Source of the DNA: a virus
Length of the DNA stretch: 47,504 nt
Strand: one strand, 5' to 3'
IMG/VR virus record: IMGVR_UViG_3300035703_000142
Coordinates: 1 to 47,504 of that record
In this document: in pieces, positions 5,288 to 32,310 of the stretch
Numbering within the stretch: position 1 is the first letter of the stretch
How the letters are laid out: each line of letters starts with the position of its first letter
Notes under the pieces: model-generated
Databases searched by the model: none
What the model saw: only the letters and a program-made list of their open reading frames with translations
What the model was told of the DNA's origin: nothing
Position numbers and translations under genes: made by a program

Positions 5288-5372
5288 TGCAGGGTGTGTG
5301 CAGTTACCTGGCTAGATAATCAGGTCAATACAGGGACTGCAAGCCCCTCGTCGCAAATTTGGGGAGTCTTCT

Positions 5373-6680
5373 GTGTCGCAACCCGCGAGGCAGCAGCGCG
5401 TTGGCTACGTGCGCGTGTCCACCGCCAGCGGAGAACAGCTCGCCGCACTCGAAAACCAGCGCGCCCGCATCGAAGCTGCCGGCGTCGATCTGGTCTTGCA
5501 GGACATCCAGTCCGGGCGCGCCACTGACCGCGATGGCTACCAGCAGCTCCTCGAGCTGATCGCGACCGGCCGTGCCCGTGAGGTCGTCATCACTCGAGTT
5601 GACCGCCTTGGTCGTGACGCCGCCGACACCGACGCCGCCATCGCCTTCGCCGCGCGCAAGGGCGTCATCATCACCGCCCTCGACGGCGGCACCATCGAGA
5701 GCGTCACCCCCACCGGCTTCGTCATGAGCCGGATCATGACGACCATGGCCGAGATGGAGAGCCGAATGCTCTCCCAGCGCATCCGCTCCGGCCTCGCCGA
5801 GCGCCGCAAGCGCCGAATGCCCTGCCGCGGCAAAGCCCCCTGGGGCTACCGGATCAACGACGACCGCACCGCCCTCGAACCCCACCCCGTCGAGTGGGAG
5901 CGCGCGCAGCGATTTCTGCGCATTTTGGCAGCGCGGGACTGGCGCATGAACACCGCCCTCGACGTTTGGGCATCAGAAGGACGGGGCGACATCCCGCTCC
6001 ACAGCTGCCGTGCCGTCAAAGCTTGGCTATTGAACCCCGTACTTCGCGGTGGCCTCGGCTATGGCCAACAGAAGAACCACGTGTTTGTAGATATTGCCTG
6101 GAATACCCACGCTGCCCTTATATCTCACACAGAATTCGCGGCTATCGAGCGCCAACTTGATGCCAACCGACGTATGTGGGGACGACACAGTAAAAGCAAG
6201 CAGCGGCTCTTAACCAGCCTCTGCCGTTGCGGCAGCTGCGGCAAAGCCATGAGCTACGCCGGCTCCCGCACGATCCCCTCGGTAATGTGCCGAACCCGCG
6301 GCTGCGAGCAGCAGTACAAGAGCACCCACGAATCCCTCATCGCCGGCGCGATCGCCCATACCCTCGCTGCGCACGCCGACTCCCTCGCAACCAACGCCCC
6401 AATCCAGGACAGCCCGGAGGTAGCCGAGCTCCGCGCCTCCATCGCCACTCTCCAAGCCCTCGGCGATCCCGACCTTGAAGACGCCATCGCGGCTAAACAG
6501 CAACGCCTGCAGTCTTTATCGCAAGTACCCTCTGTCCCGGCCGAGCTCCTGGTAGCACTACGCGATCCGCGCCTCTACGAACACGCCTCCTACGAGGAGT
6601 TGACAGAGCTATATCACCGCTTTGTGGAGCGGGTGGTTGTAACCAAGCAGGAGGTTGAGCAGGTGGTCCTTCGTTTTTGA
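5373..6680 (+). CDS. Large serine recombinase (integrase/excisionase type)
   Basis: A 435-residue protein starting at GTG 5373. Residues 10-145 are the resolvase catalytic domain: GYVRVSTASGEQ with nucleophile Ser16, and TRVDRLGRD (74-82) with the conserved Asp/Arg. Residues about 155-265 match the Recombinase DNA-binding domain (GKAPWGYRIND and later VLRGGLGYG). A zinc ribbon follows with Cys284, 286, 289, 306 and 311, then a helical C-terminus with coiled-coil character (to about 430). This is the large serine recombinase architecture used by integrative phages and by the cyanobacterial XisF group. It implies site-specific integration or element excision. It is the only recombinase seen; attP was not located. 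Confidence 0.9.
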   Translation: MSQPARQQRVGYVRVSTASGEQLAALENQRARIEAAGVDLVLQDIQSGRATDRDGYQQLLELIATGRAREVVITRVDRLGRDAADTDAAIAFAARKGVIITALDGGTIESVTPTGFVMSRIMTTMAEMESRMLSQRIRSGLAERRKRRMPCRGKAPWGYRINDDRTALEPHPVEWERAQRFLRILAARDWRMNTALDVWASEGRGDIPLHSCRAVKAWLLNPVLRGGLGYGQQKNHVFVDIAWNTHAALISHTEFAAIERQLDANRRMWGRHSKSKQRLLTSLCRCGSCGKAMSYAGSRTIPSVMCRTRGCEQQYKSTHESLIAGAIAHTLAAHADSLATNAPIQDSPEVAELRASIATLQALGDPDLEDAIAAKQQRLQSLSQVPSVPAELLVALRDPRLYEHASYEELTELYHRFVERVVVTKQEVEQVVLRF

Positions 6681-11101: not shown

Positions 11102-11210
11102 AGGACCCTCTGAGCTACGTGAGTAAGTATGCCCTTCAGCGTCCACCTCGTCAAGTAGTTCGCGGAGCCGTAGGCCCTCCCTAGCCTGTGGCCAGGACTG
11201 AAAAACCAGC

Positions 11211-11790: not shown

Positions 11791-11793
11791 CCG

Positions 11794-11813
11794 ACCTAGC
11801 TGCGTAACTACGC
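11794..11813. promoter_or_regulatory. ACCTAG-type operator, copy A
   Basis: ACCTAGCTGCGTAACTACGC differs by one base from the element inside the terL promoter (23143-23162). It sits just upstream of the minus-strand gene ending at 11488. Confidence 0.6.
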
Positions 11814-11935
11814 GCAAGCCTAACGCGACCTACTCGAGGTGGTCAGGTCGCGCGCGTGCGCGTAGACCGAACCCGATTACGAGAAAGTGCCCAAACCCCT
11901 GTGAGCGACTGGCGTTTGCCCTCGTAATGGGGGGT

Positions 11936-14376: not shown

Positions 14377-14406
14377 GCGTAGATCGCGCCTACGCGATCA
14401 CGTAGG
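14377..14406. promoter_or_regulatory. Overlapping operator dyads between divergent units
   Basis: Three dyads overlap: GCGTAG/CTACGC (14377-14395), GATCGCG/CGCGATC (14382-14399) and CCTACG-N6-CGTAGG (14389-14406). The last half-site pair, with the same 6-base gap, recurs at 27117-27134. They lie between the primase start (14365, minus) and the HTH-like gene (14471, plus). A regulator could use this site to control both directions. 14407-14470 holds further related TACG motifs and nothing coding. Confidence 0.6.
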
Positions 14407-14470
14407 CCCGACGCAACGTAGCAGCTGTGCTAGATACGTGAGTAACTACATACGCAAGTAACCCCCCCTC

Positions 14471-15151
14471 GTGCACTACGCCAACCCAAACGACTCCGTC
14501 GACCTCGGCCGCAACCAACTCCAGACGTTGTGGCGTCGCTGCTCCCGCCAACGCGGCATGACCCAACCCAAGTGGATCAAGCTCGCCGCCGCCATCTTTC
14601 CCGGCCCCCAACACCTCCACTCCTCGCAGATCGGCGGCCTCGCCACCGGCAAGATGCGCGACCCCTCCCCCAAGTGCCTCCTCGTCCTCGGCCTCCTCAA
14701 CCTCTCCCTCGCCGCGTCGGCTCTCCGCGCCGACGGCTCCCGCGTCTACCCGGACGTTGACGCCCCCCGCTTCCCCGACAGCCTCCGCTACATCTGGCTC
14801 GGCCTGGACCCCATGGTTGGCCCTTCGGGCCAACCCCTCGGCCCTGCAGAGCTCTTCCTCGTGGCGACGGGCCAACTCGACCTCCACCTCGACACCACCC
14901 GCGAGATCCCCATGGACCTCGAGGACGAGTACAGCGCCCGCCTCGGCCGTCACCTCCGCCTCGGCCTGGCCGCCCTCGGCCGCGACTTCCTGAGCGAAAT
15001 GCCCGAGCTCCGCACCACCGCCCCCTCGTTGGAGCCCCTGCTGATGGGCCGCACGGTCCCCGGCGACACGATCCTCGCCGACCTCCCGGCCCTGGCCCAG
15101 CTGATCAACACCACCGACAGCGACCTCTGGGCCCGCCTGACCGACGCCTAA
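14471..15151 (+). CDS. Putative HTH regulator, 226 aa
   Basis: Starts at GTG 14471. Residues about 15-75 read as a Cro/CI-like helix-turn-helix module (NQLQTLWRRCSRQRGMTQPK, then HSSQIGGLATGKMRDPSPK with the recognition-helix-like QIGGLATGK). The remaining 150 residues are helical and acidic with no recognised domain; a dimerisation or sensing role is possible. It lies beside the densest operator cluster of the genome, the usual position of an autoregulated repressor. A hairpin encoded by GGCCCTTCGGGCC occurs at 14818-14830. The regulator call is inference from a weak motif and position. Confidence 0.55.
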   Translation: MHYANPNDSVDLGRNQLQTLWRRCSRQRGMTQPKWIKLAAAIFPGPQHLHSSQIGGLATGKMRDPSPKCLLVLGLLNLSLAASALRADGSRVYPDVDAPRFPDSLRYIWLGLDPMVGPSGQPLGPAELFLVATGQLDLHLDTTREIPMDLEDEYSARLGRHLRLGLAALGRDFLSEMPELRTTAPSLEPLLMGRTVPGDTILADLPALAQLINTTDSDLWARLTDA

Positions 15152-15165
15152 CCCAACCCCAGTGT

Positions 15166-15189
15166 GTAGTTACGCGCCTAGGTATAGTG
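15166..15189 (+). promoter_or_regulatory. Inverted ACCTAG-type operator followed by TATAGT
   Basis: GTAGTTACGCGCCTAGGTA (15166-15184) is the reverse complement of the ACCTAG-NN-GCGTA-NN-TAC element. It runs directly into TATAGT (15183-15188), a good -10 box. No clear -35 box. It probably drives the RHH gene at 15253. Confidence 0.55.
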
Positions 15190-15252: not shown

Positions 15253-15486
15253 ATGGGCGGCACCCAACGCCGCACCGTCTGGCAGGAGGAGAAGCGCCAA
15301 CGCACCCTCTCGTTGACCGACACCGCCTGGGTCCTCGCCACCACCCTCGGCGAAACCCAGGGCCTCAACCGCTCCGAGGTCTTCGAGATCCTGCTGCGCT
15401 ACGCGCAGCAAAAGCACCTCGACCTCTCTTCTCTTCGGGGACAACTCACCGCGCCGCAGGTGCCGCCAACCCCCGCTGCTGTGTGA
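15253..15486 (+). CDS. Ribbon-helix-helix DNA-binding protein, 77 aa
   Basis: I prefer ATG 15253 (MGGTQRRTVWQEEKRQRTLS); a GTG at 15187 would start inside the promoter. The core RTLSLTDTAWVLATTLGETQ followed by GLNRSEVFEILLRYAQQKH has the strand, helix, turn (GLNRSE) and second helix of MetJ/Arc/CopG-type regulators. The Pro-rich tail is disordered. It sits directly downstream of an operator-overlapped -10 box, suggesting autoregulation, and just ahead of the ssDNA-binding gene. Confidence 0.7.
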   Translation: MGGTQRRTVWQEEKRQRTLSLTDTAWVLATTLGETQGLNRSEVFEILLRYAQQKHLDLSSLRGQLTAPQVPPTPAAV

Positions 15487-15490: not shown

Positions 15491-15513
15491 AAGTAGCGAG
15501 CGCAGCGAGCTAC
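15491..15513. repeat. Short GCGAGCGCAGCGAGC repeat, copy 1
   Basis: A quasi-palindromic GCGAGCG-C-AGCGAGC unit in the leader of the ssDNA-binding gene. Near copies lie before the gene at 17201 (17184-17199) and before the portal ATG (24761-24776). All three are within about 110 bases of a start codon. Confidence 0.5.
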
Positions 15514-15516
15514 CTA

Positions 15517-15545
15517 TTGACGTAGCCAACCAGACGGCGTAGGGT
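15517..15545 (+). promoter_or_regulatory. Sigma70-like promoter for the ssDNA-binding gene
   Basis: TTGACG (15517-15522), a 17-base spacer, then TAGGGT (15540-15545). The -35 box is strong and the -10 box weak. CTAC/GTAG half-sites flank the -35 box (15510 and 15522). Confidence 0.55.
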
Positions 15546-16186: not shown

Positions 16187-16194
16187 CGGCCGCG

Positions 16195-16217
16195 AACTAC
16201 GCGACTAGGTGACGTAG
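16195..16217. promoter_or_regulatory. ACCTAG-type operator (reverse) at gene start
   Basis: AACTACGCGACTAGGT (16195-16210) is the reverse complement of ACCTAG-TC-GCGTAGTT. A further GACGTAGG follows, ending three bases before the ATG at 16220. A protein bound here could affect transcription or ribosome access. Confidence 0.5.
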
Positions 16218-18165: not shown

Positions 18166-18267
18166 CCCACCCCCTCGATGTTCCACCCCCTCGTTACTGC
18201 AATCACCCGCGCGATTCAGCATGTCCTCAACCCCCGAACTCCCTCGTTTCGGCGAGCCCAACGAGTC

Positions 18268-18498: not shown

Positions 18499-18649
18499 CG
18501 CCCTCCACCTCGCCGCCACCTCGATGGCGCCATTCATCTTCGGCTTCGCCCTCGGCGGCTACGTGTTCGACACGGCGCCTTACGGCGCCGGCCTCACCAA
18601 CCCCCTCCAAAAGCCCGCACAAGGCCCCAGCACCCCTCTCCCGCCCTAA
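18485..18649 (+). CDS. Small membrane protein, 54 aa
   Basis: Starts at TTG 18485, overlapping the previous stop. Residues about 3-28 are hydrophobic (ALHLAATSMAPFIFGFALGG). The tail is Pro-rich and includes APYGAG, encoded by a GGCGCC-TTAC-GGCGCC palindrome (18576-18591). One membrane segment, function unknown. Confidence 0.5.
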   Translation: MSWRNALHLAATSMAPFIFGFALGGYVFDTAPYGAGLTNPLQKPAQGPSTPLPP

Positions 18650-18659
18650 CACCCCCACC

Positions 18660-18887
18660 ATGGCCTCCACCCCCCTTCCCGGTGCCCCTAGCCCCCTCAG
18701 AGCGCGCTGCTACGCCACCGCCAAGGGCTACACCGTCTCCCTCGAACCCCCCACACCCACAACCCCCTCGAACCCCGCCACCCCTCGCTACTTCGCCACC
18801 CTCGCCGCCGCCATGGCCTGGCTTTACTCACCCCCCACACCCCCTTCGGGGGTGGAGCACCTAATTACTCAGTTAGTTAGCAATTAG
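18660..18887 (+). CDS. Hypothetical protein, 75 aa
   Basis: ATG 18660 opens MASTPLPGAPSPLRARCYAT, then a Pro/Thr-rich middle and RYFATLAAAMAWLYS. The compact pattern CYATAKGYTVSLE ... RYFATLAAAMAWLY resembles small strand-helix proteins. The last codons include a CACCCCC-TTCG-GGGGTG hairpin (18837-18854), which could act as the transcript end. Function unknown. Confidence 0.5.
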   Translation: MASTPLPGAPSPLRARCYATAKGYTVSLEPPTPTTPSNPATPRYFATLAAAMAWLYSPPTPPSGVEHLITQLVSN

Positions 18888-18952
18888 CGGAAACCGATCC
18901 ACTCGTGCTACCGAGCTATGTATCATTCGAGTAAGCGTTCAAGGTATCTCCA

Positions 18953-19327
18953 GTGAGCGAGGACATTGCTCCTCAGGAGCAGCCCCAAAAACAAAAGCGG
19001 GTTGGTTGGAACTCAGTGGAGATAACGGAGCAGATTGACTACGCTGCCGAGCTGATCTGCAACGGCAAACAGCCATGGCAAATTCGGCAGATCATGACGG
19101 AGAGGTGGCCCCTTGACCGTAGAACGGTAGAGCGAAGGACCCACGAAGCACGCAAACAATTAGCGCGCGAATTGTGCGGTATGGATAGAGGAGAAAAGGT
19201 TGCAGAAATGGTTGGCGCAATGCAGAAAGTGTTGGACATGAGTATGACCAACGGCCGAGGCTCTGACGCCATCGGCGCCATGCGCCTGATCACCGAGCTG
19301 CTAAACCTCAACCCCAGAAACCAGTAA
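18953..19327 (+). CDS. Putative terminase small subunit
   Basis: A 124-residue protein from GTG 18953. It has an N-terminal helix-turn-helix-like region (YAAELICNGKQPWQIRQIMT, then RWPLDRRTVERRTHEARKQL), followed by a helical half (VAEMVGAMQKVLDMSM ... AIGAMRLITELLNLN). DNA-binding N-terminus plus helical oligomerisation C-terminus is the TerS design, though it lies 4 kb before terL. The same plan recurs in the minus-strand gene ending at 19838. TerS is inferred from layout; a regulator is the alternative. Confidence 0.55.
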   Translation: MSEDIAPQEQPQKQKRVGWNSVEITEQIDYAAELICNGKQPWQIRQIMTERWPLDRRTVERRTHEARKQLARELCGMDRGEKVAEMVGAMQKVLDMSMTNGRGSDAIGAMRLITELLNLNPRNQ

Positions 19328-19341
19328 CGGCAAGGGGTTTC

Positions 19342-19435
19342 GCCATTCATCAGGGTTTCGGCCATTCATAGCCACCCAGCTCCAGCGGCCATTCATTGGC
19401 CGCTTTTTGCATTCACAGCGAAATTCGCCATTCAT
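19342..19435. repeat. Four GCCATTCAT repeats around a terminator
   Basis: GCCATTCAT occurs exactly at 19342, 19361, 19388 and 19427, all in the same orientation, immediately after the putative terS. One copy forms the stem edge and loop of the terminator at 19384-19408. The direct spacing is irregular (19, 27, 39). This is a candidate packaging-initiation (pac) or protein-binding array. 19440-19800 contains no gene, but several dyads. Confidence 0.6.
19384..19408 (+). terminator. Rho-independent terminator after terS-like gene
   Basis: AGCGGCC (19384-19390) and GGCCGCT (19398-19404) pair around a seven-base loop, with a T-run at 19404-19408. Confidence 0.8.
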
Positions 19436-19512
19436 AGCCTCCCGTGCCTACGGCGCTACGCCCGGCGCTAGCTGCAACGGATGCGCCAGCAAGCCGATGC
19501 CTGAGCGCTTTG

Positions 19513-19553
19513 CACTTAGCCCCACTAAGTGACACATAGGCCCCGGCCTATGT
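19513..19553. other. Two adjacent perfect dyads
   Basis: CACTTAG (19513-19519) / CTAAGTG (19525-19531) and ACATAGGCC (19534-19542) / GGCCTATGT (19545-19553) are perfect inverted repeats two bases apart. They lie mid-way in the 510-bp non-coding stretch 19328-19837. Further CTATAGG/GGCGCC-type dyads follow to about 19640. They may form the recognition site of the flanking terS-like protein or a recombination site. Confidence 0.6.
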
Positions 19554-19806
19554 AGTGCTCAGCTGCCGGCGGACGCTATATCTGGGGGCACCATAGGTAG
19601 CGCCGGGGTTGGCCGGGACGCTATGGGTGGCGCCATCTCACCCCCGCCAGGACCGGCGCCGCGGTGCCCGTCCTGACCCTCGCTGTCCCATACGCTCACC
19701 GCGGCCGCGCCGCTTGTGGGCCCATCTCGCAGGGGCAGCCTCGCCGCAGCCGATCCCCCGAAACCGGACATAGCGGACATAAAAGCGCGCCCCTCGCGGG
19801 GCGCAC

Positions 19807-19833
19807 AAAAAAAAAGCGGCGCTTAGGCGCCGC
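19807..19833 (-). terminator. Terminator of the minus-strand cassette
   Basis: Read on the minus strand, GCGGCGC/GCGCCGC arms (19816-19822, 19827-19833) with loop CTAA are followed by nine T (19807-19815). It closes the operon 22746-19838. A second GC-rich hairpin follows at 19787-19805. Confidence 0.85.
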
Positions 19834-19837
19834 GGGG

Positions 19838-20290
19838 TCAGAAGGGCCAGCTGGCATCAGGCGGCCGGATGCTCTCGCGGTGCGCTCGGCGTTGCCCCTC
19901 GCTGGGTTCCGCTACGGCGATGGTGTGGCCGGCGAGGCGCGCGGCCTGCAGGGTATCGGCTCGATAGATCGCGGCCAGGGTTCCGGCTGCCGCCTTGGCC
20001 GCGCCAACCGCGGCATTTAGGTTCCCGCGGGTCTCAGCTTGGTGGGAGAGGCGGTTGAGTCTCTCCACCGATTCCGCCAGGGCGGCCGCCAGGTCGGCGG
20101 CCCCGATCTCATCGGCGAGCTCGGCGGCGGCATCCGCCACGTAACGCCGAGCGGTTCGGCGATCGACGCGGTAACGCTCCGCCAGTTGCGTTACGGCTGC
20201 GGTGCGCGGCAGGCCGTTAGCCAGCAAAGCCGCGGCGGCATCCACGCGGCGGCGGAGCTCCGCCTCGCTACTGCGGTTCCGGCTGCCCAT
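19838..20290 (-). CDS. TerS-like HTH protein, 150 aa, in minus cassette
   Basis: ATG 20290 (a GTG three bases earlier is possible). N-terminal half: RRRVDAAAALLANGLPRTAA, then QLAERYRVDRRTARRYVADA, which lines up with the gene at 18953 (AA-LL-NG, the R-W/Y-x-hydrophobic-D-R-R-T element, then A-x-x-x-L). The C-terminal half is helical and Ala-rich. It is a paralogue or independently acquired relative of the putative TerS and the last gene of the cassette. A satellite-like packaging factor or a cassette regulator are both possible. Confidence 0.6.
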   Translation of the reverse strand: MGSRNRSSEAELRRRVDAAAALLANGLPRTAAVTQLAERYRVDRRTARRYVADAAAELADEIGAADLAAALAESVERLNRLSHQAETRGNLNAAVGAAKAAAGTLAAIYRADTLQAARLAGHTIAVAEPSEGQRRAHRESIRPPDASWPF

Positions 20291-20426
20291 CACGCAAGGC
20301 GGCCCGCAACAGGCTCGCCGTCAGGTTGCTGATACTGCGGCCCTCCATCTCGGCGAGCTCGCGCAACCGCTCGGCGATGGCAGCGGGAACCACGATGGAG
20401 AGGCGGTGAGATTTCGGGGCCGTCAT
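20268..20426 (-). CDS. Ribbon-helix-helix regulator, 52 aa
   Basis: From ATG 20426 to TAG 20268: MTAPKSHRLSIVVPAAIAER, then LRELAEMEGRSISNLTASLL and RAALRDGQPEPQ. The strand RLSIVVP, helix, GRSIS turn and second helix are the MetJ/Arc/CopG fold. The start overlaps the upstream stop (ATGA) and the end overlaps the next gene by 23 bases. Probable cassette repressor or copy-control protein. Confidence 0.75.
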   Translation of the reverse strand: MTAPKSHRLSIVVPAAIAERLRELAEMEGRSISNLTASLLRAALRDGQPEPQ

Positions 20427-21127
20427 TCCGCCGTCTCCTGCAGGGCCCGCTCGGCGGCCTTACGGCCCGTGCCATGGGCGCGGAACACGATGGCGACGTG
20501 TGAGGGCCGCGCGGCGCACAACTGACAGCGCTCGCATGTCATTCCCTCAAACCGCTGTGCAGGGCAAACGACCGCGCGATTCCCGCCGGCGGTTACCCAC
20601 GCGGTGCGCTGATCATCCGCCGGAACCACGAATACCGCGCGCAAACCGTCCGCCATAGCGGCGTCCGCCTCTCTCTCGCTGTGGCAGCTGGCGTTAACCG
20701 TGAACCCGTGGGCTGTGGCGGCCTTGAACGCTTGAACCGTGGTGGGCGTCCGCTTGTGGTGGCTGTAAGTGAACCCGCGGCGGCCGCGGTTTGCGTCCAC
20801 AAGCTCGGCGAGGGCCCTGCGACCTGCCGCAGTGCTCGGCGCCCACAGGTCGCCGGCTTGGTTATGGCGCCACAATTGGCCGGCGGGAAGGGCCCGGATT
20901 GTCTGCAGGAACCCGTGCCATGGGAGCCCGCGGGTTCCTTCGGTTACGGCCCGCCAATGGAGGGCAAGGGGCCCGCGTTCCGCGTAGCAGCCGTTGCCCT
21001 TGAACGCGCAAACCGCGGCGCTCGGGCATGTTTCGGCGCTGCTAGTGGAAACCGGGATTGGGCCGGTCTTGGCGTTAGCGCTGCGGGCCGTGAGATGGAA
21101 GCGCAGCGCGGTGAGCTTGGCGTGCAT
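20423..21127 (-). CDS. Cys-rich conserved phage protein, DUF7227-like
   Basis: A 234-residue protein. Its N-terminus has KTGPIPVSTSSAETCPSAAV, CAFKGNGCYAERGPLALHW and the segment LWRHNQAGDLWAP, followed by RGFTYSHHKRTPT, GFTVNASCHSEREAD and, near the C-terminus, CPAQRFEGMTCERCQLC. I recall this whole pattern from a widely distributed uncharacterised phage/plasmid family. Two Cys groups (CPSAAVCAFKGNGC and CERCQLC) could bind iron-sulfur or zinc; the layout looks enzyme-like, but no reaction is known. It is the central gene of the cassette. Confidence 0.8.
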   Translation of the reverse strand: MHAKLTALRFHLTARSANAKTGPIPVSTSSAETCPSAAVCAFKGNGCYAERGPLALHWRAVTEGTRGLPWHGFLQTIRALPAGQLWRHNQAGDLWAPSTAAGRRALAELVDANRGRRGFTYSHHKRTPTTVQAFKAATAHGFTVNASCHSEREADAAMADGLRAVFVVPADDQRTAWVTAGGNRAVVCPAQRFEGMTCERCQLCAARPSHVAIVFRAHGTGRKAAERALQETAE

Positions 21128-21162
21128 GGTGTGGTGGTGTGTGGTGACGTGACGTGGTGGCG

Positions 21163-21804
21163 TCAGACGATGCCGAGCAACCGGGGCCAGGCATCCGGGG
21201 CGTCCGGTTCAACCGTCCGGCCGTCCGGGGTTTCAGCGAGCGAGTCCAGCGCCCATCGCTCCACTTCGCCGTGGGTCGGAACCTGCCACCAGCGGCCGCG
21301 CCAGAGCATCTCCAAACCGTCCGGGCCGTCTCGCAGTAGGTCGGCGCTCACCGTCTCGCGGGCCGCGAACTGTTCGGCCGCCTCATCGTCTGCCGCGGGG
21401 ATGTAGGGAGAACCCAGCATCGCGGCGATGGCAGCCGCTACATCTTGTGAGCCCGGATTGTCGGGGAGAACGGGACCCTCTAGCGGTGCAATCCTGCGGT
21501 TCTCAGCCGCGGCAACATCCAGCTGCCAACTGCGCAAGTAACGCCAGCTGCGAGGGTTTGCGGCATCGATCTCACCGGCCGCGGTATCCCATAGGCGCGC
21601 AAGGGCTAGCGCGCTCTCCTTAGGGGCGCTCAACATGCCACCCATAGAAAGGCCGCTGGCCGTGTGGGTGACAGCCCATTGCCTCGGCGCGGGTTTGGCG
21701 CCATCTCGAAGAACCGGGCGATGCACGGCGAGGTTTGCGCCGACCCACGCCGCGGGAACCTCGCGCGGGCCGTTGCTTGTGCTGATCGTGATGGTGCGGG
21801 GCAT
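21163..21804 (-). CDS. Hypothetical protein, 213 aa, minus cassette
   Basis: MPRTITISTSNGPREVPAAW, then NLAVHRPVLRDG, QWAVTHTASGLSMGG, and a central helical region ALALARLWDTAAGEIDA. The C-terminal third has MLWRGRWWQVPTHGEVERWA. The pattern (LAVHR ... WAVTHxxSGL) reminds me of small proteins in proteobacterial and phage islands, often beside the DUF7227-like gene, but no function is known. No membrane segment. Confidence 0.65.
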   Translation of the reverse strand: MPRTITISTSNGPREVPAAWVGANLAVHRPVLRDGAKPAPRQWAVTHTASGLSMGGMLSAPKESALALARLWDTAAGEIDAANPRSWRYLRSWQLDVAAAENRRIAPLEGPVLPDNPGSQDVAAAIAAMLGSPYIPAADDEAAEQFAARETVSADLLRDGPDGLEMLWRGRWWQVPTHGEVERWALDSLAETPDGRTVEPDAPDAWPRLLGIV

Positions 21805-21808
21805 GGTG

Positions 21809-22075
21809 CTAGTTGCAAAGGTCAGGGCAAAGGTCGGCGGCGGCCTTGCGCCAGCTGGTCAGCTCGCGGGCCGAGACGTTGATCCGGGGCGCAAACGCTG
21901 CGAGCTCGCGGATCTGATCAGGCACGGCATGGCAGCCGCTATATCCCTCAGCCCAGAACCCGCGAAGCGCGTTGCGCTCAAACGCCACAAACGCGCGGTT
22001 TGGGTTGCCGTTGCGGTCGTTTGGGGCGCATAAGTGGAGAACTGTTGTCACTCCAGAGAGATTGATCTCAGGCAT
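21809..22075 (-). CDS. Conserved hypothetical protein, 88 aa
   Basis: ATG 22075 with a CA-rich leader. MPEINLSGVTTVLHLCAPND, RNGNPNRAFVAFERNALRGF, GYSGCHAVPDQIREL and the end INVSARELTSWRK follow a layout I recall from many phage and plasmid small proteins (LHLCAPNDRNGNP). Fold probably mixed alpha/beta. Role unknown; located directly before the 213-residue gene. Confidence 0.7.
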   Translation of the reverse strand: MPEINLSGVTTVLHLCAPNDRNGNPNRAFVAFERNALRGFWAEGYSGCHAVPDQIRELAAFAPRINVSARELTSWRKAAADLCPDLCN

Positions 22076-22101
22076 GGTGTGGTGGGGTGTGGTTATGCGA
22101 C

Positions 22102-22272
22102 CTAGTTGCGTTGCTCGCGGGCCTCGCAGTAGGCCGGGGAAAGGTTGGCCAGTTCGGCTTCTACGCGGCATGCAGTGAGCGCTAGGTGAGTGTTAATCGC
22201 GTCGGTGGTGGCGACGGCTGCGGCGCAAGTGGCGATGGAGAGGGCAGCCGCTGCGGTGATGTAGCGGAGCAT
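22102..22272 (-). CDS. Small secreted or membrane protein, 56 aa
   Basis: From ATG 22272 to TAG 22102: MLRYITAAAALSIATCAAAV looks like a signal peptide or membrane anchor, followed by HLALTACRVEAELANLSPAY and CEAREQRN. Its start shares one base with the upstream stop (TGATG), showing coupling. The end CEAREQRN resembles YCEARADV in the upstream protein, so the two may be related. Function unknown. Confidence 0.65.
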   Translation of the reverse strand: MLRYITAAAALSIATCAAAVATTDAINTHLALTACRVEAELANLSPAYCEAREQRN

Positions 22273-22493
22273 CAGCGGGCAAGGCGGCGAGCTTCCATCT
22301 CGCGGGCAAAGGCAACATCGGCGCGCGCCTCGCAGTAGCCGGCAGCGAAACCGCAGGCCGACAGGCTGATCACACCGCCGAGCATCAGCTCGGGGTTCTT
22401 GCCGGTCACAGCGGTCGTGATCATGCCGCCGACGGTGACACCGAAGGAGATGGCGATCGCGGAGAGGATAAAGGGGGCGTGCTGGCTGCGCAT
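22272..22493 (-). CDS. Membrane protein, 73 aa, two segments
   Basis: ATG 22493 with a CA-rich leader. Two hydrophobic segments: FILSAIAISFGVTVGGMITT (about residues 8-27) and LMLGGVISLSACGFAAGYCE (about 36-55), then a charged end ADVAFAREMEARRLAR. No signature family. It could be a small regulator or superinfection protein in the cassette. Confidence 0.65.
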   Translation of the reverse strand: MRSQHAPFILSAIAISFGVTVGGMITTAVTGKNPELMLGGVISLSACGFAAGYCEARADVAFAREMEARRLAR

Positions 22494-22527
22494 GGTGTGG
22501 TGGGTGGTGGTGTGTAGTGGTGGGTGA

Positions 22528-22746
22528 TCAGAGCGCGGTCACTTCCGCGATGGCGAAACGCCTACCGCAGACCGTGGCGGCTGGGCTGCGCTGATAAGTG
22601 GCCAGCTGCTTTTGAGCGAGCTGCAGACTTCCGCACCAGGTAACGGCTTCGGTGCCGTTAACGATGCAGTGGGTATAGGTGCGGGTTTTGCTCGTGCGCT
22701 TGACGGTCAGGCCGTCAAGGGTGGTGGCGGTAAAGGTGGTGGCCAT
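22528..22746 (-). CDS. Hypothetical protein, 72 aa, first gene of minus cassette
   Basis: MATTFTATTLDGLTVKRTSK, THCIVNGTEAVTWCGSLQLA and CGRRFAIAEVTAL. Beta-rich start and three Cys, no membrane segment. Starts at ATG 22746 after a CACCACACC-type leader and lies nearest to the putative cassette promoter (22815-22837). Confidence 0.6.
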   Translation of the reverse strand: MATTFTATTLDGLTVKRTSKTRTYTHCIVNGTEAVTWCGSLQLAQKQLATYQRSPAATVCGRRFAIAEVTAL

Positions 22747-22814
22747 TAGGTGTGGTGCGTGGTGGTGGCCCTGCGCTCCCTCACCTAACGGGGGAGGGGG
22801 CCTGACCTGATGCA

Positions 22815-22837
22815 ATTGTAAGCTACCTAGCTACGTA
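22815..22837 (-). promoter_or_regulatory. -10 box with operator upstream, cassette promoter candidate
   Basis: On the minus strand TACAAT (22820-22815) is preceded by TACGTAGCTAGGT (reverse of the ACCTAGCTACGTA element, 22825-22837), which fills the position of a 17-base spacer. The -35 box is poor (GCTGCA or CTGCAT), suggesting activator dependence or a specialised polymerase. Confidence 0.5.
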
Positions 22838-23139
22838 TGCAGCAGTCCACTTAACCACTCTTTACACCGCACACTCCAGGCGGGGCCTGCGATCCTGGCC
22901 AACTCGCGTACCTGTCCTTACCACAGGTACGCGGCTGAGATCCACTGCGGCACGGCCCTTTTACTCTGTCCAAAGTCGCTGGACAGCGCCCCGGCGCCAG
23001 CACCTCCCCCCGGGTAAAGGAGAACAGCTGTACTGGCGCAGGCGGGTGCTCTCACACCAAACCCCCCAGACTTACCTACTTACGCACGCACTTACCCCCA
23101 CACCCCGGCGCTCTCCACCCGCTCGTACCTCCCCCCACC
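22838..23139. other. Non-coding region with 11-bp inverted repeat
   Basis: There is no plausible gene here. A perfect 11-bp dyad is present, CGCGTACCTGT (22905-22915) and ACAGGTACGCG (22923-22933), with a seven-base loop. GTCCA/TGGAC flank 22968-22984. Another CTCGTAC unit, the iteron word, is at 22122-downstream position 23122-23128. Location in front of terL makes this a candidate cos/pac or control region. Confidence 0.5.
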
Positions 23140-23168
23140 TTGACCTAGCTGCGTAATTACGCTATATT
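23140..23168 (+). promoter_or_regulatory. Strong promoter upstream of terL with operator in spacer
   Basis: TTGACC (23140-23145), exactly 17 bases, TATATT (23163-23168). The spacer contains the perfect palindrome GCGTAATTACGC (23151-23162) within the 20-base element ACCTAGCTGCGTAATTACGC (23143-23162). A bound regulator would block or remodel the promoter. A second relative, ACCTAGTGACGTAGCTGCGC, lies at 23259-23278, just before the terL start. The leader of about 110 bases includes GTGCC-TTGG-GGCAC. Confidence 0.75.
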
Positions 23169-23285
23169 CACTAGGTGCCTTGGGGCACTCGGGGCTGTGG
23201 TGGCCCTTAAACAGCGGGGTTTTCCTGTGGTGGGAAGACCCTGCGCCCTCCCCGCGTAACCTAGTGACGTAGCTGCGCCCACTCG

Positions 23286-24641
23286 GTGTCTCTCCTCGGC
23301 TCGATACCAGGCGGCAAATGCCTCGAGCCTCCTATCAACACCAACACGCGGTGCCGCGAGACCCGCGAGCAAATCCGCGAGCGCATCTACGCCGGCCTTC
23401 TCCCCGCCCAGCGCGAGTTCGTCGACTGCACGGACCGCAAGATCATCGGCTACGTCGCCGGCTTCGGCGCGGGCAAAACCCACTCGTTGTGTGCCCTCGC
23501 CGTCCTCCGCGCGCTGGACAACGTCAACACAGTCGCCGCGGTCTTCGAGCCAACGCACATCATGATCCGCGACGTCTGGGTCCGCTCGTTCGACGACTAC
23601 CTCGACGCCAACGGCATCGACTACGACTTCCGCGTCTCCCCCCAACCCGAATACCGGTTGCACGTCCCCGGCGGCACGGTCACCCTGCTCTGCCGCGCGA
23701 CCGAGACCTACAACCGCATCCGCGGCCAAAACCTCTCGTACTGCATCGCGGACGAAATCGACACCTCCTCGGCCGAAATCGCCCAAAAAGCAACAGAGAT
23801 GATGCTCGCCCGCCTCCGCGGCGGCAAAAACCCCCAACTCGCCGTCGCCAGCACCCCCGAGGGCTTCCGCTGGATGTACCGCACCTTCGTCGAAGCCGAG
23901 GACCAAAGCGACCGCCACCTCGTCCGCGCCCGCACCCTCGACAACCCCCACCTCCCCCCAGGCTTCGTCGACTCCCTCTACAAGAACTACCCACCCCAAC
24001 TCCTCGCCGCCTACCTCGAAGGGCAGTTCACCAACCTCAACTCCACCACCGTCTACCCCTACTTCGACCGCGACCTCCACTGGACCGACACCGTCGTCCA
24101 ACCCGACGACCGCCTCTTCATCGGCATCGACTTCAACGTCGGCTGCTGCTTCGTCGAAGTCTGCGTCCGCCGCGGCGACGAGTTCCACTTCATCGACGAG
24201 TACCACCCCAAAGACACCCCCTCGGTGGTCAAAAAGATCCAGGAGCTCTACCCCGACCACATCGCCCGCGGCAACGTCGTCGTCATACCCGACGCCGCCA
24301 GCCGCCAACGCACCACCACCAACGCCAGCGAAAGCGACCTCGCCCTCCTCCGCAAGGGCGGCTTCACGGTCAAAGCCCAACCCGCGAACCCCGCCATCGA
24401 GGACCGCATCAACGCGATGAACGTGCTGATGATCAGCAACCGCTTCCGCGTCCACACTCGCTGCCGCTACCTCATCCGCTCCCTCGAAACCCAAGCCTTC
24501 GACGACAAGGGCCGCCCCGACAAATCCGGCCGCGGCATCGAGGACAAATCCGGCCCCGTTGACGCCGCCGGCTACATCGTCACCGCCCTCGCCGGCCTCC
24601 GCCGCTACGCCACCGGCGGCTCCAACTTCCGCACGTACTAG
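23286..24641 (+). CDS. terL: Terminase large subunit
   Basis: A 451-residue protein from GTG 23286. The ATPase domain has Walker A GFGAGKT (59-65), Walker B SYCIADEID (151-159) and coupling motif ASTPEG (188-193). The C-terminal RNase H-like nuclease has metal ligands in FIGIDFN (Asp282), FIDEY (Glu305 region) and VVIPDAASR (Asp336). All expected motifs are present, so packaging activity is likely intact. It opens the structural-gene operon. A perfect hairpin (24635-24657) spans the stop codon. Confidence 0.96.
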   Translation: MSLLGSIPGGKCLEPPINTNTRCRETREQIRERIYAGLLPAQREFVDCTDRKIIGYVAGFGAGKTHSLCALAVLRALDNVNTVAAVFEPTHIMIRDVWVRSFDDYLDANGIDYDFRVSPQPEYRLHVPGGTVTLLCRATETYNRIRGQNLSYCIADEIDTSSAEIAQKATEMMLARLRGGKNPQLAVASTPEGFRWMYRTFVEAEDQSDRHLVRARTLDNPHLPPGFVDSLYKNYPPQLLAAYLEGQFTNLNSTTVYPYFDRDLHWTDTVVQPDDRLFIGIDFNVGCCFVEVCVRRGDEFHFIDEYHPKDTPSVVKKIQELYPDHIARGNVVVIPDAASRQRTTTNASESDLALLRKGGFTVKAQPANPAIEDRINAMNVLMISNRFRVHTRCRYLIRSLETQAFDDKGRPDKSGRGIEDKSGPVDAAGYIVTALAGLRRYATGGSNFRTY

Positions 24642-24715
24642 GGCTGCGCCCTAGTACACAAGCCATAAACCCCTGCGGTGCAGGGGAAGTCAGCTACTTA
24701 ATAGTGATTAAGTAG
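24635..24715 (+). promoter_or_regulatory. Three consecutive perfect hairpins between terL and portal
   Basis: GTACTAGGGC/GCCCTAGTAC with loop TGC (24635-24657, containing the terL stop); CCCCTGC/GCAGGGG with loop GGT (24670-24686); CTACTTAAT/ATTAAGTAG with loop AGTG (24694-24715). None has a T-run, so they are not standard terminators. They could partly attenuate transcription, protect a processed mRNA end or be operators. An ACCTAG-type element (24724-24739) follows. Confidence 0.75.
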
Positions 24716-24776
24716 TGCCACATACCTAGCCGCGTAACATAGACAAAAGCACTTGGCGCGGGCGAGCGAAGCGAGC

Positions 24777-26324
24777 ATGGCCACCTCCGGCAGCACCTAT
24801 CCCGGTCGCGACCTCCCCAACTACGGCGGCTACCGCGCCCCCGGCGGCGCCGTCCACGAGCAACCCAGCGAGGACCCCTCGATCCGCGGCGCCAGCGTCC
24901 TGGCGATGATGCCCTACTGGGACCCAATCACCATCTGCCTCGGCGGCACCAAGCTCGTCCGCGCCCGCAGCGAAGACATCGTCCCCCGCGAACCCCGCGA
25001 AGACGACGACGCCTACAAGCGCCGCATCTTCCACCTCACCATGCCCCCGTTCCTCCAGCGCCTGGCCTCCCAGGCCGCGGGAACAATCCTCCGCAAGGGC
25101 ATCACCCTCGAAGGCGACCCCTACTGGGACGAGTGGCGCCAAGACGTCACCGGTGACGGCGTCACCCTCAACGGCTTCGCCCGCCGCCTGCTCACCAACG
25201 CCCTCCTCTACGGGCACTGCAGCACCCTCGTCGACTACAGCGCCCTCGAGCCCGCCCCCAACCTCGCCGCCCAACGCGCCAACGGCGACCGCCCCTACCT
25301 CTGCCCCGTCGACGCCACCCAAATCATCGGCTGGCGCACCGCCAACAACCGCGCCGAAAGCGCCCTCACCCAAGTCCGCATCCTCGAGCGCATCACCGAG
25401 CCCAACGGCACCTTCGGCGAAAGCGTCTTCGACCAAATCCGCGTCCTCACCCCCGACCGTTGGGAGGTCTGGCGCCTCGTCGGCGAAGGCCGCACCGCCG
25501 GCTGGTCCCTCACCTCCTCCGGCCCCCTCACCACCTCCACCCTCCCCCTCGTCACCGTCTACAGCAACCGCCTCGGCACGTTGATGTCCCGCCCACCCCT
25601 CCTGGAGTGCGCCTACCTCAACATCGCCTACGCCCAACGCTTCTGCGACTACCACCACGCCATCCACGTCGGCGCCAACCCCATCCTCACCCTCCGCGGC
25701 TTCGACCCCGACTCCGAGAGCCCTGTCGGACTTTCAGTGAATACGGCGATCCTGCTGCCCCCGGACGGCGGCGCCGAAATCGTCGCCCCACCCAGCGACG
25801 CCTACGCCGCCCAGCTCCAGTGCCTCAAGGCCCTCGAGGACCAAATCTCCCGCCTCGGCATCAACACGCTGGCCCAACAAAACATCACCAACGCCGCCGC
25901 CGAAGCCAAACGCCTCGATCGCGTCGACTCCGACTCGATCATGGCGATCATCAGCGAGGACCTCGAGCGCGCCATCACCGACATTCTCACCCTCGCGGGC
26001 GAATACGTCGGCGTCGAACCCCCCACCGTCTCGATCCCCAAGGACTACGAAAACCGCCTGATCGACGGCAACCAAATCACGGCCTACCTGCAGCTCTTCA
26101 TGCAGGGCGCCATCTCCCAAGAAACCCTCCTCGCCATCCTCCAGCAAGGCGAGGTCCTTCCACCCACCGTCGACCTCGAGAAAGAAATCATCGAAACCCG
26201 CGACTTCCTCGAGGAGCAGCAAGCGGTCGACGCCATGACCTCCCCCTCGGACACGCCCGACACCGCGTTGACGAACGCCACGCTCCCGACCCCACTCCGC
26301 CCAGACCGCAGCCGTGGCACCTAA
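24777..26324 (+). CDS. Portal protein (DUF4055-like)
   Basis: From ATG 24777 the protein has 515 residues. A TTG at 24753 would translate a GCGAGCGAAGCGAGC repeat, so it is not preferred. N-terminal YTGR-type loop sequences precede MMPYWDPITICLGG; a middle region has DRPYLCPVDATQIIGWRTAN. The long stem-like helix is NTLAQQNITNAAAEAKRLDR, followed by SIMAIISEDLERAITDIL. The C-terminus is acidic. Length and position between terL and the Mu F-like gene support a portal, the dodecameric gate of the capsid. Confidence 0.88.
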   Translation: MATSGSTYPGRDLPNYGGYRAPGGAVHEQPSEDPSIRGASVLAMMPYWDPITICLGGTKLVRARSEDIVPREPREDDDAYKRRIFHLTMPPFLQRLASQAAGTILRKGITLEGDPYWDEWRQDVTGDGVTLNGFARRLLTNALLYGHCSTLVDYSALEPAPNLAAQRANGDRPYLCPVDATQIIGWRTANNRAESALTQVRILERITEPNGTFGESVFDQIRVLTPDRWEVWRLVGEGRTAGWSLTSSGPLTTSTLPLVTVYSNRLGTLMSRPPLLECAYLNIAYAQRFCDYHHAIHVGANPILTLRGFDPDSESPVGLSVNTAILLPPDGGAEIVAPPSDAYAAQLQCLKALEDQISRLGINTLAQQNITNAAAEAKRLDRVDSDSIMAIISEDLERAITDILTLAGEYVGVEPPTVSIPKDYENRLIDGNQITAYLQLFMQGAISQETLLAILQQGEVLPPTVDLEKEIIETRDFLEEQQAVDAMTSPSDTPDTALTNATLPTPLRPDRSRGT

Positions 26325-27114
26325 CGCCGAGGCGTACCTCCGCCGCGTCGACCGCGAGCTCCGCTCCCTCGAGCTCCGCCTCCAACAACTAATCCGCGGC
26401 ACCGCGCTCCAGGCCCTCGCCCAGCTCCGCGACCTCCTCTCCTCGCTCCCCAGCGACGGCCTCAGCCGCCGCCTGGCCTACCGCCAACTCCGCCCCCGCC
26501 TCGAGACCGCCCTCATCCCCCTCAACGACACCCTCGCCTCCCTCCTCTCCCTCGAACTCCACCGCTTCACCACCCGCGCCCGCGAACTCGCCGCCCAATT
26601 CGCCGGTATCACGCCCGCCGACCCCGTGCCCCTCCCCGCCGAGGTGATGGCGCGCACGCGCTTCCTCGGCCGCACCCTCGCCGCCTACTTCGAGCGCCAC
26701 AGCCCCTCGCAGTTCATGCGCGAGATCCTCCGCCTCGCCGACCGCACCGTCGAAAAAGCCATCCTCGACGGCACCCCCACCCCGGACCTCCTCCCCCTCG
26801 TCCTCCCCGAAGCCACCCGCAAAGGCCGCCGGATCCCCATCGTCCGCCGCGGCAGCATCGCCTACACCGCCCTCGCCCGAATCAACGCCCTAATCACCAC
26901 CTCGATCTGGAACGTCTACAGCGCCGAGAGCCGCCAAATCTGGAACCGCCTACCCAACCTCGTCGCCTGGGAATGGGTCGCCATCCTCGACCCCAAAACC
27001 TGCCCCATCTGCCGCCCCCTCGACGGTCGCCGCGAGCAATCCCTCGAGAGTTTTGAAGTCTTACCCCAAGTCCACCCGCACTGCCGCTGCGTCGTCATCC
27101 CCATCCGTGAGTAA
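26314..27114 (+). CDS. Mu gpF-like head morphogenesis protein
   Basis: A 266-residue protein from GTG 26314, overlapping the portal gene by 11 bases. The N-terminal half is a long helical bundle (RRVDRELRSLELRLQQLIRG etc.). The C-terminal end holds the family signature WVAILDPKTCPICRPLDGR and VHPHCRCVVIP, with Cys/His residues able to bind zinc. These minor head proteins follow the portal in many siphophages and are packaged inside the head. Portal coupling is supported by the overlap. Confidence 0.9.
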   Translation: MAPNAEAYLRRVDRELRSLELRLQQLIRGTALQALAQLRDLLSSLPSDGLSRRLAYRQLRPRLETALIPLNDTLASLLSLELHRFTTRARELAAQFAGITPADPVPLPAEVMARTRFLGRTLAAYFERHSPSQFMREILRLADRTVEKAILDGTPTPDLLPLVLPEATRKGRRIPIVRRGSIAYTALARINALITTSIWNVYSAESRQIWNRLPNLVAWEWVAILDPKTCPICRPLDGRREQSLESFEVLPQVHPHCRCVVIPIRE

Positions 27115-27116
27115 TA

Positions 27117-27134
27117 CCTACGTGCGCGCGTAGG
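27117..27134. promoter_or_regulatory. CCTACG-N6-CGTAGG operator before scaffold-capsid genes
   Basis: CCTACG (27117-27122) and CGTAGG (27129-27134), spaced by TGCGCG. The identical arms and gap occur at 14389-14406. TAAACT (27139-27144), a fair -10 box, follows, and the scaffold ATG is at 27167. Confidence 0.6.
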
Positions 27135-27166
27135 ATGTAAACTAATGACGTAACCCTCTAGTTCCA

Positions 27167-27874
27167 ATGCCCGTTGAAGCCACCGGGGACCAGTCCGTGA
27201 CTGATCCGCAATCGCCCGTGGCGGTTGCACCCGAAGCGCCTCAAACTGTCGACCTCCTCGAATACCAGCGCGTCCTCAAGAAGCTCGAACTCGTTCAAGC
27301 CGACAAGGCCGCCGCCGGCGAGAAGAACCAACAGCTCAACGAGCGGTTGAAGGACATTGAGCGCCAACTCCAGCAACGGAACCAGCAGCAGCTCCAGGAC
27401 CAGGGCGAATACAAAGCGCTCTGGGAAGAAGCGAAGCAAACAATCGCTGCCCGCGAAGAGCGCATCACCGCCCTTGAAGCCGAGCTTTCCTCCGAGAGGA
27501 CAGCCACGGCCCAAGAGCGCCTGAAAGCCTCCGCAATGGCAAGCATCTCCCGCTCGGGCGCCATCGCCCCGGACCAGATGTACGCCCTCTTGCACTCGCA
27601 GCTCCGAGACGTCGAGGGCCGTCCAGTGGTGCTTGCGGGGGGCGCGGAGCAACCACTCGACGCCTACCTCGGCAACCTCAGAGCACCCGGCAGCGGTTAC
27701 GAGCACCACTTCTCCTCCACCGGAGCCCGCGGCATGGGCAGCACCGCCACGACGAGCGTCGCTCCCGGCATGAGCAACCCCTACAAGACCGGCAACCTCA
27801 CCGAGCGCATCCGCCTCGAAGTCGAGAACCCGGAACTTGCCAAGGCACTCATGGCCGAAGCCCAACGGGGTTAG
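27167..27874 (+). CDS. Capsid scaffolding protein
   Basis: A 235-residue protein. The N-terminus is acidic and disordered. Residues about 35-125 form one long coiled coil rich in Gln/Glu/Lys (QVLKK-like VLKKLELVQADKAAAGEKNQ, RQLQQRNQQQLQDQ, ITALEAELSSERTA). The C-terminal tail is basic/Asn-rich with NLTERIRLEVENPELAKALM. A coiled-coil protein immediately before the major capsid gene is a typical scaffold. It guides procapsid assembly and is then removed. Confidence 0.88.
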   Translation: MPVEATGDQSVTDPQSPVAVAPEAPQTVDLLEYQRVLKKLELVQADKAAAGEKNQQLNERLKDIERQLQQRNQQQLQDQGEYKALWEEAKQTIAAREERITALEAELSSERTATAQERLKASAMASISRSGAIAPDQMYALLHSQLRDVEGRPVVLAGGAEQPLDAYLGNLRAPGSGYEHHFSSTGARGMGSTATTSVAPGMSNPYKTGNLTERIRLEVENPELAKALMAEAQRG

Positions 27875-27900
27875 TCACGGAAACCCTGCCTTAAAGAGCC

Positions 27901-28977: not shown

Positions 28978-28998
28978 GCGCTCCGCGCTCAAACCAAA

Positions 28999-29023
28999 GC
29001 CCCCGCAAAACGGGGGCTTTTTT
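28999..29023 (+). terminator. Terminator after major capsid gene
   Basis: GCCCCCG/CGGGGGC arms (28999-29005, 29011-29017) with loop CAAAA and T-run 29018-29023. A smaller GAGCGC/GCGCTC hairpin overlaps the capsid stop. Confidence 0.92.
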
Positions 29024-29042: not shown

Positions 29043-29312
29043 TCACACCTCCTCGAGCCCCAACCGCATCCGCTCCTGCCGCTCAAAGACGCCCACGGTA
29101 TCCATCGCCATCTTGTAGCTCTGGGTGATCACCTGATTCACCACGTGATAGGTGACATCCAACTCCGCACAAATCTGCGGCACCGTCATCCCCTCGTCGC
29201 GCAACCGTTGAATCTCCGGCACAACCTCCGACAACGCCCTCACCTTGGTGAGATCCGTCTGCTGCTGCAGGGTCATCCCCTCGACTTTGGGGGCGGACTT
29301 GCGGGCGGCCAT
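29043..29312 (-). CDS. Small helix-turn-helix protein in late region, 89 aa
   Basis: Reads opposite to the structural genes. The core PEIQRLRDEGMTVPQICAEL followed by DVTYHVVNQVITQSYKM is a helix-turn-helix of the Trp repressor/sigma-like type: the MTVPQICAELDVTYHVVNQ element has the right spacing. The N-terminus is basic and disordered. A regulator inserted between capsid and connector genes is likely a moron. It could control late or lysogenic genes. Confidence 0.7.
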   Translation of the reverse strand: MAARKSAPKVEGMTLQQQTDLTKVRALSEVVPEIQRLRDEGMTVPQICAELDVTYHVVNQVITQSYKMAMDTVGVFERQERMRLGLEEV

Positions 29313-29384
29313 CTAACTATTGACGCAACTACATCAGGTTAGCCAACCATACGCACTTAGACTGTCCCTAACGGAGGCGCGGCG

Positions 29385-30920: not shown

Positions 30921-31348
30921 CCCTCCAATCCATCCGCGCCTTCTACGAAGCGCCCCTCATCACCGCCTACGGCGCCCTCACCCCCGCCGTCCCCGTCTAC
31001 GTCGACAACCAACCGGTCCCCGAGTTCGACGCCCTCAGTGAATACGTCCTCCTCCGCCTGAGCTTCGGCCGCATCACCGAGCCCACCCTCGCCGACACCG
31101 CCATCTGGCACCGCGGCTCCCTCGTTGTTGAGTGCTACAACGCCAAAGGCGTCGGTCCCGGCCGCGGTCAAGTCCTCATCGAAACCGCGATCACCGTCTT
31201 CAACGGAATGAACGCCACGAGCTCCACCGCCGTCAACGGAGTGCGCGGCAGCGTCGGCGGAATCGTCGGCCCCTCGTACTTTGCACTCGACGGTCAACCT
31301 CACTACTTAACCCGCCTCAGTGTTCCCTTCCAAGCGCGAGTTATCTAA
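30917..31348 (+). CDS. Tail terminator protein
   Basis: ATG 30917 overlaps the previous stop (ATGA), giving 143 residues. MTLQSIRAFYEAPLITAYGA, VPVYVDNQPVPEFDALSEYV, LVVECYNAKGVGPGRGQVLI and YLTRLSVPFQARVI follow the small alpha/beta fold of gpU/minor tail terminators. Position after the neck protein and before the major tail gene agrees. It caps the tail tube and stops polymerisation. Confidence 0.75.
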   Translation: MTLQSIRAFYEAPLITAYGALTPAVPVYVDNQPVPEFDALSEYVLLRLSFGRITEPTLADTAIWHRGSLVVECYNAKGVGPGRGQVLIETAITVFNGMNATSSTAVNGVRGSVGGIVGPSYFALDGQPHYLTRLSVPFQARVI

Positions 31349-31444
31349 GTAGCAAGGTAACCGCGCGTTAGCGTGACTACAGCCGGGCTGTGCCCGTCGT
31401 GCCCCCACACAGCGCCCCCACCTGCTGTTCATTAGGCACCAATC

Positions 31445-32260: not shown

Positions 32261-32286
32261 GCTGCGTAGTTGCGTACTACTAGAAT
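32259..32286 (+). promoter_or_regulatory. Promoter with dyad spacer before tail chaperone
   Basis: TTGCTG (32259-32264), a 16-base spacer, TAGAAT (32281-32286). The spacer holds GTAGT/ACTAC arms (32266-32280), the same half-sites as the other operators. A second relative (GTACGTGACTGCGTAGTT, 32293-32310) abuts the ATG at 32311, leaving a very short leader with no Shine-Dalgarno site. Confidence 0.65.
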
Positions 32287-32310
32287 CCGTATGTACGTGA
32301 CTGCGTAGTT

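Follow-up and report, generated by a model that had tools for sequence, protein, structure and literature searches.

To our knowledge, the maintenance of lysogeny in cyanophages is poorly understood. Among host regulators, MetJ is a repressor that uses a cofactor and has a few targets, and one ribbon-helix-helix (RHH) dimer binds each of its tandem 8-bp quasi-palindromic met boxes. The 13-bp stoperators of L5 and other cluster A mycobacteriophages are asymmetric and polarised with respect to transcription; a monomer which combines an HTH with a stoperator domain binds them (PMC6550527, PMC9283540). In the Bacillus prophage SPbeta, the 15-bp SPBRE motif is bound by the tyrosine-recombinase-like MrpR, the master repressor (PMC10516654). 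A literature search on RHH-operated dispersed phage operators or cyanophage repressors returned nothing directly on point.

A dispersed element in an uncultured phage genome

The window, meaning the whole stretch of DNA analyzed, is a virus record of 47,504 bases whose ends carry identical 75 bases, as circular assemblies do. Judged from its genes, which include those for a terminase, portal, DNA polymerase A, primase/helicase, dCTP deaminase, ThyX, endolysin and large serine recombinase, it is an uncultured, cyanophage-like tailed phage. The closest named relatives of the terminase (23286-24641) were found in the cyanophages KBS-S-2A and S-H1 (43-44% identity), and a cyanobacterial host is therefore presumed. 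At the DNA level, the phage collection gave short terminase matches only. The large serine recombinase, or integrase (5373..6680, +; PF00239, 1.1e-27; phrog_95, 2.8e-47), is of the kind expected in a temperate phage, and this gene is the sole basis on which we infer lysogeny; no prophage was recovered from bacterial genome contigs by two alignments, with the HTH protein or the terminase. A tRNA search of the window found none. Boundaries of small genes are our own calls. Internal repeats of 73-76% identity (43785-43870/44157-44242 and 45950-46114/46504-46668) were noticed within or just past a large gene ending at 46136, and are probably tail-fibre-like.

A first-pass annotation had proposed that one dispersed element of ACCTAG type stands in front of many transcription units. 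Its seven elements were all found where it had placed them and on the same strands, and the pattern CCTAGNNRCGTA occurred seven times in the window versus 0.1 times per dinucleotide shuffle, its backward reading giving no occurrence. Because this pattern had been picked from the data, further tests were performed with position weight matrices (PWM). A PWM made from the seven seeds (iteration 0), with its cutoff set to allow one chance hit per 47.5 kb, retrieved nine sites in the first 12 kb of the related genome G001 and eight in the first 16.5 kb of G002. A second PWM, built solely from the relatives' sites and not fully independent because these had first been chosen with a window-seeded matrix, gave 22 matches in the window (minimum score of 12 bits) versus 0.68 in shuffles. 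About fifteen of them are non-seed sites, and 19 are noncoding, in a window of which 13.6% is noncoding according to a curated gene list. The looser TACG dyads of the annotation (sites 14377-14450, 27111-27160 and 32286) are further members of the family, and sites that it had not seen include those at 5297, 11108, 15509, 18858, 22097, 23071, 29312 and 31336. The element is enriched far above shuffles and conserved in relatives; the observation is confirmed, and it extends to more sites than had been noticed.

The matrix consensus is yTACCTAGTnRCGTARCTACG, and the PWM is self-similar at shifts of 4, 8 and 12. Over the whole window, TA dinucleotides were over-represented at spacings of 4, 8, 12 and 16 (z of 8.1, 3.8, 7.2 and 4.7, respectively), and stretches with three or more TA in five 4-bp steps numbered 22 versus 3.1 in shuffles. 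The effect is located in noncoding DNA, which gave z values of 5.8, 4.5 and 6.7 at distances 4, 8 and 12; coding DNA gave a z of 2.1 at distance 4. In the near clade, the strongest pair was TAC-N8-GTA (39 versus 5.4 expected), spacings 0, 4 and 12 being raised too, while the far clade displayed CTA-N2-TAG (48 versus 9.8 expected) together with CTA-N6-TAG; CTA-N10-TAG was enriched as well. These statistics suggest that a tandem 8-bp box, roughly YTACSTAR, accounts for the spacings of both clades; two tandem boxes would generate yTAC-N8-GTAr in this phage and its nearest kin. The self-similarity, the TA spacing and the CTA/TAG spacings are those expected of a MetJ-like operator made of tandem 8-bp boxes. 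Relatives keep the TA rhythm with different bases, in the surroundings of the terminase and elsewhere. Phages with a KRQRT-type RHH beta strand are enriched in RCGTAR and those with a KRCRS-type strand in CTACCTAG, a correlation which is suggestive only, because it amounts to essentially one split in the tree.

Array sites at promoters and gene borders

Array sites were found before early, leftward-cassette, late and integrase units. The site upstream of the integrase is at 5297..5320 (-; 14.0 bits with the PWM from relatives). In the early region, a site at 11108..11131 (-; 21.1 bits), which has a counterpart in G001 and G002, occupies the gap between a gene starting near 11101 (-) and an HNH gene at 11211 (+), and another at 11791..11814 (+; 23.8 bits), given as 11794 in the annotation, lies upstream of the leftward gene 11488-11775. 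This small HNH endonuclease gene (11211-11519, +; PF14279, 1.1e-8), with an array site upstream, is on the plus strand within an otherwise leftward replication module. Three sites (14389-14412, +, 14.2 bits; 14427-14450, -, 16.7 bits; 14445-14468, +, 13.0 bits) are packed into 14389..14468, in the divergent gap between the primase/helicase (-) and HTH (+) genes. They are followed by one site in the HTH-RHH gap (15163..15186, -; 21.2 bits), where relatives have arrays too, one in the RHH/SSB gap (15509..15532, +; 21.9 bits), found in the same gap of G001 and G002, and one in the SSB/exonuclease gap (16190..16213, -; 16.0 bits; 16195 in the annotation). The site upstream of the gene at 18953 (18858..18881, -; 20.9 bits) has syntenic arrays in G001, G002 and G004.

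A weaker site (22097..22120, +; 11.0 bits) precedes the leftward gene whose start is at 22051, and the leftward-cassette promoter has a site at 22822..22845 (+; 18.2 bits). The late region contains three sites, at 23071..23094 (+; 17.6 bits), where TTACCTACTTACG is conserved in relatives, at 23140..23163 (+; 23.4 bits), and at 23256..23279 (+; 23.8 bits), immediately upstream of the terminase. Other sites are located in the terminase/portal gap (24721..24744, +; 16.4 bits), after the gene ending at 27114 (27111-27134, -, 13.2 bits; 27137-27160, +, 19.3 bits), upstream of a small leftward HTH_23-like gene (29312..29335, +; 17.0 bits; gene 29043-29312, PF13384, 2.9e-4), at the end of the gene 30917-31348 (31336..31359, +; 15.4 bits) and upstream of the gene at 32311 (32286..32309, -; 17.3 bits). 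We noticed that the divergent regulator gap (14389-14468) and the late region (23071-23279), with three array sites each, are reminiscent of three-operator switches. A 40-nt G/T-rich repeat is also present in three copies (21124-21163, 22072-22111 and 22490-22529) at the starts of leftward-cassette genes; it is CA-rich on the minus strand, ends in CACCATGC and may represent a shared translation-start leader, and the copy at 22072 continues directly into an array site.

The first-pass annotation had placed several elements exactly between -35 and -10 boxes. This was verified for the late promoter, where the site at 23140 lies within TTGACC-17-TATATT, but does not hold as a general rule, the other claimed placements not being good promoters. 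A sigma70-type scan of positions 14000-33000 produced this single match (23140-23168) versus 1.5 expected by chance. In G001, the nearest distinct relative, the element, a -10-like TATAGT and the downstream leader are kept at this promoter, but TTGACC is not. At 15183 (TATAGT) and 22820 (minus-strand TACAAT), the element does adjoin a TANNNT hexamer, but there is no -35 box. At 32259, the spacer contains only a weak copy and the scoring copy, 32286-32309, is downstream of it. A strong terminator-like hairpin (32237-32255) directly precedes this array/promoter region, and another (28996-29020) follows the capsid gene. The 12-bp palindrome GCGTAATTACGC, reported at 23151, exists, but such palindromes number 15 in the window versus 16 in shuffles, and it was rejected as a special feature. 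In the leftward cassette, an array followed by a TANNAT hexamer, with no -35 box, was found in the window, G001, G002, L009, G004 and others, an arrangement compatible with an activator site as well as with an operator covering a weak promoter.

The HTH-RHH gene pair and its arrays in relatives

Three candidate binders had been named, an HTH-like protein and two RHH proteins. The genes at 14471 and 15253 remain candidates; they make up an invariant cassette with the element on its flanks. The third, a 52-aa RHH_5 protein (20268-20426), has homologues in only four related loci, not in all relatives, and was rejected as binder; it is a second, distinct RHH protein of this phage, and its gene is overlapped by that of a DUF7227 protein (20423-21127, -; PF23872, 1.1e-74). 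The HTH protein (14471..15151, +; AlphaFold pLDDT of 90.8) has an XRE/HTH_3-like N-terminal domain and a helical C-terminal domain. It gave no Pfam or PHROG match; Foldseek related its model to ClgR and a V. cholerae HTH_3 protein (probability of 0.87), as a partial match with weak E-values, in which the N-terminal domain is HTH_3/lambda-CI-like, and gave no confident PDB match for the C-terminal part. The RHH protein (15253..15486, +; a GTG start at 15187 is also possible) is the most likely binder. Its model (pLDDT of 84.6) superposed on CopG (1b01) with an rmsd of 0.7 over 41 columns, a target TM of 0.90 and a probability of 0.99, giving it the RHH fold of MetJ-like repressors; the Foldseek E-value is weak (0.3) because the chain is so short. 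RHH_1 was matched in Pfam by 6 of 12 RHH orthologues, the window copy itself having no match.

The two genes are conserved as neighbours, usually followed by SSB. Array thresholds were fixed after the window had been seen and used unchanged on later loci. Among 11 divergent phages, which, like all relatives counted here, are not independent samples, arrays were present before, between or after the pair in 27 of 33 regions versus 2.97 expected, and in 2 of 55 coding control windows. Loci fetched later, via the integrase, had arrays in 10 of 14 such regions (1.58 expected), including the HTH-RHH gap in 5/5 of those that have the RHH gene. Many arrays lie no more than about 20 bases from a start codon or extend over the stop codon of the HTH gene, and some far-clade RHH-SSB gaps have no array. 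In the main set, arrays were found upstream of 6 of 7 related integrase genes (0.13 expected; L058 and L052 are near-duplicates). In a wider set, integrase homologues of at least 43% identity had an upstream array in 9/23 cases (0.48 expected), and distant ones in 1/31 (1.4 expected). Several integrase homologues that have the HTH gene lack the upstream array. It is absent in L072, L077 and L085, whose integrase homologues share 54-63% identity and of which L077 and L085 have the HTH-RHH pair; integrase regulation may have been lost or moved. Arrays precede SSB in 7 of 12 cases (0.38 expected) and the terminase in 10 of 21 (2.2 expected), and are at or near chance for capsid, polymerase and other operon-internal genes.

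The HTH and RHH protein queries gave no match in a named-phage collection that includes KBS-S-2A and MED4-184. These two cyanosiphoviruses, which do not have the cassette, show neither arrays nor TA rhythm. KBS-S-2A (KBS2A; HQ634187) has a related terminase (43% identity), but the HTH-RHH pair is absent there, as are the integrase and other integration genes (PMC3751600).

Nature of the element and comparison with known systems

We consider it likely that the phage encodes a transcription regulator which controls lysogeny and for which the elements serve as dispersed operators, the RHH protein being the most likely binder; within the operator reading, this protein is probably the one that binds. 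This is the interpretation of the first-pass annotation with its emphasis shifted, and it is partly supported by the data. As in the case of MetJ and its met boxes, neighbouring RHH dimers would occupy adjacent 8-bp boxes and insert their beta ribbons into the major groove. The RHH protein would probably act with, or under the control of, the XRE-like protein encoded just upstream. From the position of the arrays before, between and after both genes, the pair is predicted to autoregulate. In a prophage, it would keep the replication genes of the early region, the leftward cassette and the integrase repressed, together with the late (terminase) promoter, by occluding the -35/-10 region or the point where the transcript begins. 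Binding itself, the identity of the binder, repression rather than activation and the link with lysogeny are read from sequence and models, and control of the early, leftward and late units and of the integrase from array position. The placement of about twenty copies before early, late, integrase and regulator genes, in this phage and in relatives, suggests that one small phage protein would switch most of the genome on or off.

The HTH protein could equally be the binder, since it is as conserved as the RHH protein and TAC-N8-GTA also fits an HTH dimer. According to this alternative, which we regard as rather unlikely as a whole, the XRE-like protein would bind the inverted repeat TAC-N8-GTA as a dimer, or the element as a two-domain monomer, and the RHH protein would be an accessory or antagonist. 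The excess of TAC-N8-GTA in the close clade, the lambda-CI-like N-terminal domain, the presence, in most relatives, of arrays immediately before the HTH start codon and the precedent of two-domain phage repressors on asymmetric dispersed sites (PMC9283540) agree with it. However, spacings 0, 4 and 12 are enriched too in this clade, the far clade has CTA-N2-TAG and CTA-N6-TAG, and repeated RHH half-sites explain a modular 4-bp rhythm better than a single fixed dimer spacing does. It is less probable still that the element is an activator site which replaces a missing -35 box, the regulator turning promoters on in a timed cascade. Such a role would explain the TANNAT hexamers that follow the leftward-cassette array without TTGACA in several relatives and the late promoter of G001, which keeps the element and the -10-like hexamer and not the -35, and RHH proteins such as AmrZ can activate (PMC3325190); but the distance from array to hexamer varies, many arrays are at start codons or after genes where no recognizable promoter is present, and weak -35 boxes are common in GC-rich phages.

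Roadblocks halting the elongating polymerase, like the stoperators of L5-type mycobacteriophages, appear very unlikely. About 20 dispersed sites lie in short intergenic gaps, including those between co-directional genes (24721, 27137 and 31336), and the motif varies among relatives as it does in cluster A (PMC6550527), but stoperators have a single orientation relative to transcription (PMC6550527, PMC9283540) and a hand tally of the clearly directed sites gave 7 sense and 8 antisense. We attach very little weight to the idea that the phage has borrowed the sites of a host regulator, for example the cyanobacterial nitrogen regulator NtcA. Promoters of the NtcA type lack a -35 box and have TANNNT as their -10, and the terminase relatives point to a cyanobacterial host; against this, the box letters differ from one phage clade to another, the arrays go with a pair of phage genes, and NtcA-like GTAN8TAC sites were rejected as being at chance level (3 versus 2.2 expected). 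The least probable reading is that of an element acting at the RNA level or as a recombination linker. The proximity of many arrays to start codons, or their overlap with the HTH stop codon, would suit it, but the arrays occur on both strands and in divergent gaps, their tandem TA pattern is strand-symmetric, and an Rfam search gave no structured-RNA match.

Returning to operators bound by the RHH protein, we tentatively propose, at somewhat short of even chances, a genome-wide prophage switch in which this protein and its XRE-like partner coat 8-bp boxes arranged in tandem at about 20 promoters and gene borders, the box letters and the DNA-reading beta strand covarying across a large group of uncultured cyanophage-like viruses and creating new immunity specificities. 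The clade change in letters could mean immunity groups. What emerges is a defined regulon in at least 16 related phages, comprising an operator code, a pair of candidate proteins and target promoters. Other phages can be screened for the system by its TA-every-4 signature. Should the RHH protein prove to be the binder, this would be a further solution to the control of a whole prophage through dispersed sites, besides L5 stoperators and SPBRE.

The logic of the proposed system resembles that of both. With cluster A stoperators, it shares dispersed sites (20-30 repressor sites there, 22 matches here, 19 of them noncoding), short intergenic gaps and promoters as locations, variation of the motif and a site before the regulator gene. 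In contrast, the sites described here are tandem TA-rhythm boxes associated with an HTH-RHH gene pair, the phages belong to an unrelated group, and the system is not classified as a stoperator system because its sites have no polarity. SPBRE/MrpR likewise combines an element dispersed over many phage promoter regions with a master repressor and a phage serine recombinase (PMC10516654), but its motif is unrelated, and no tyrosine-recombinase-like protein was identified among the candidate binders, which are RHH and XRE-like. The operator plan appears closest to that of the MetJ met boxes: MetJ and the Arc-CopG proteins share with the proposed regulator the RHH fold, tandem 8-bp boxes and, as proposed here, one dimer per box, whereas the present system comprises about 20 phage loci with YTACSTAR, and its sequence relation to MetJ is limited to the RHH fold.
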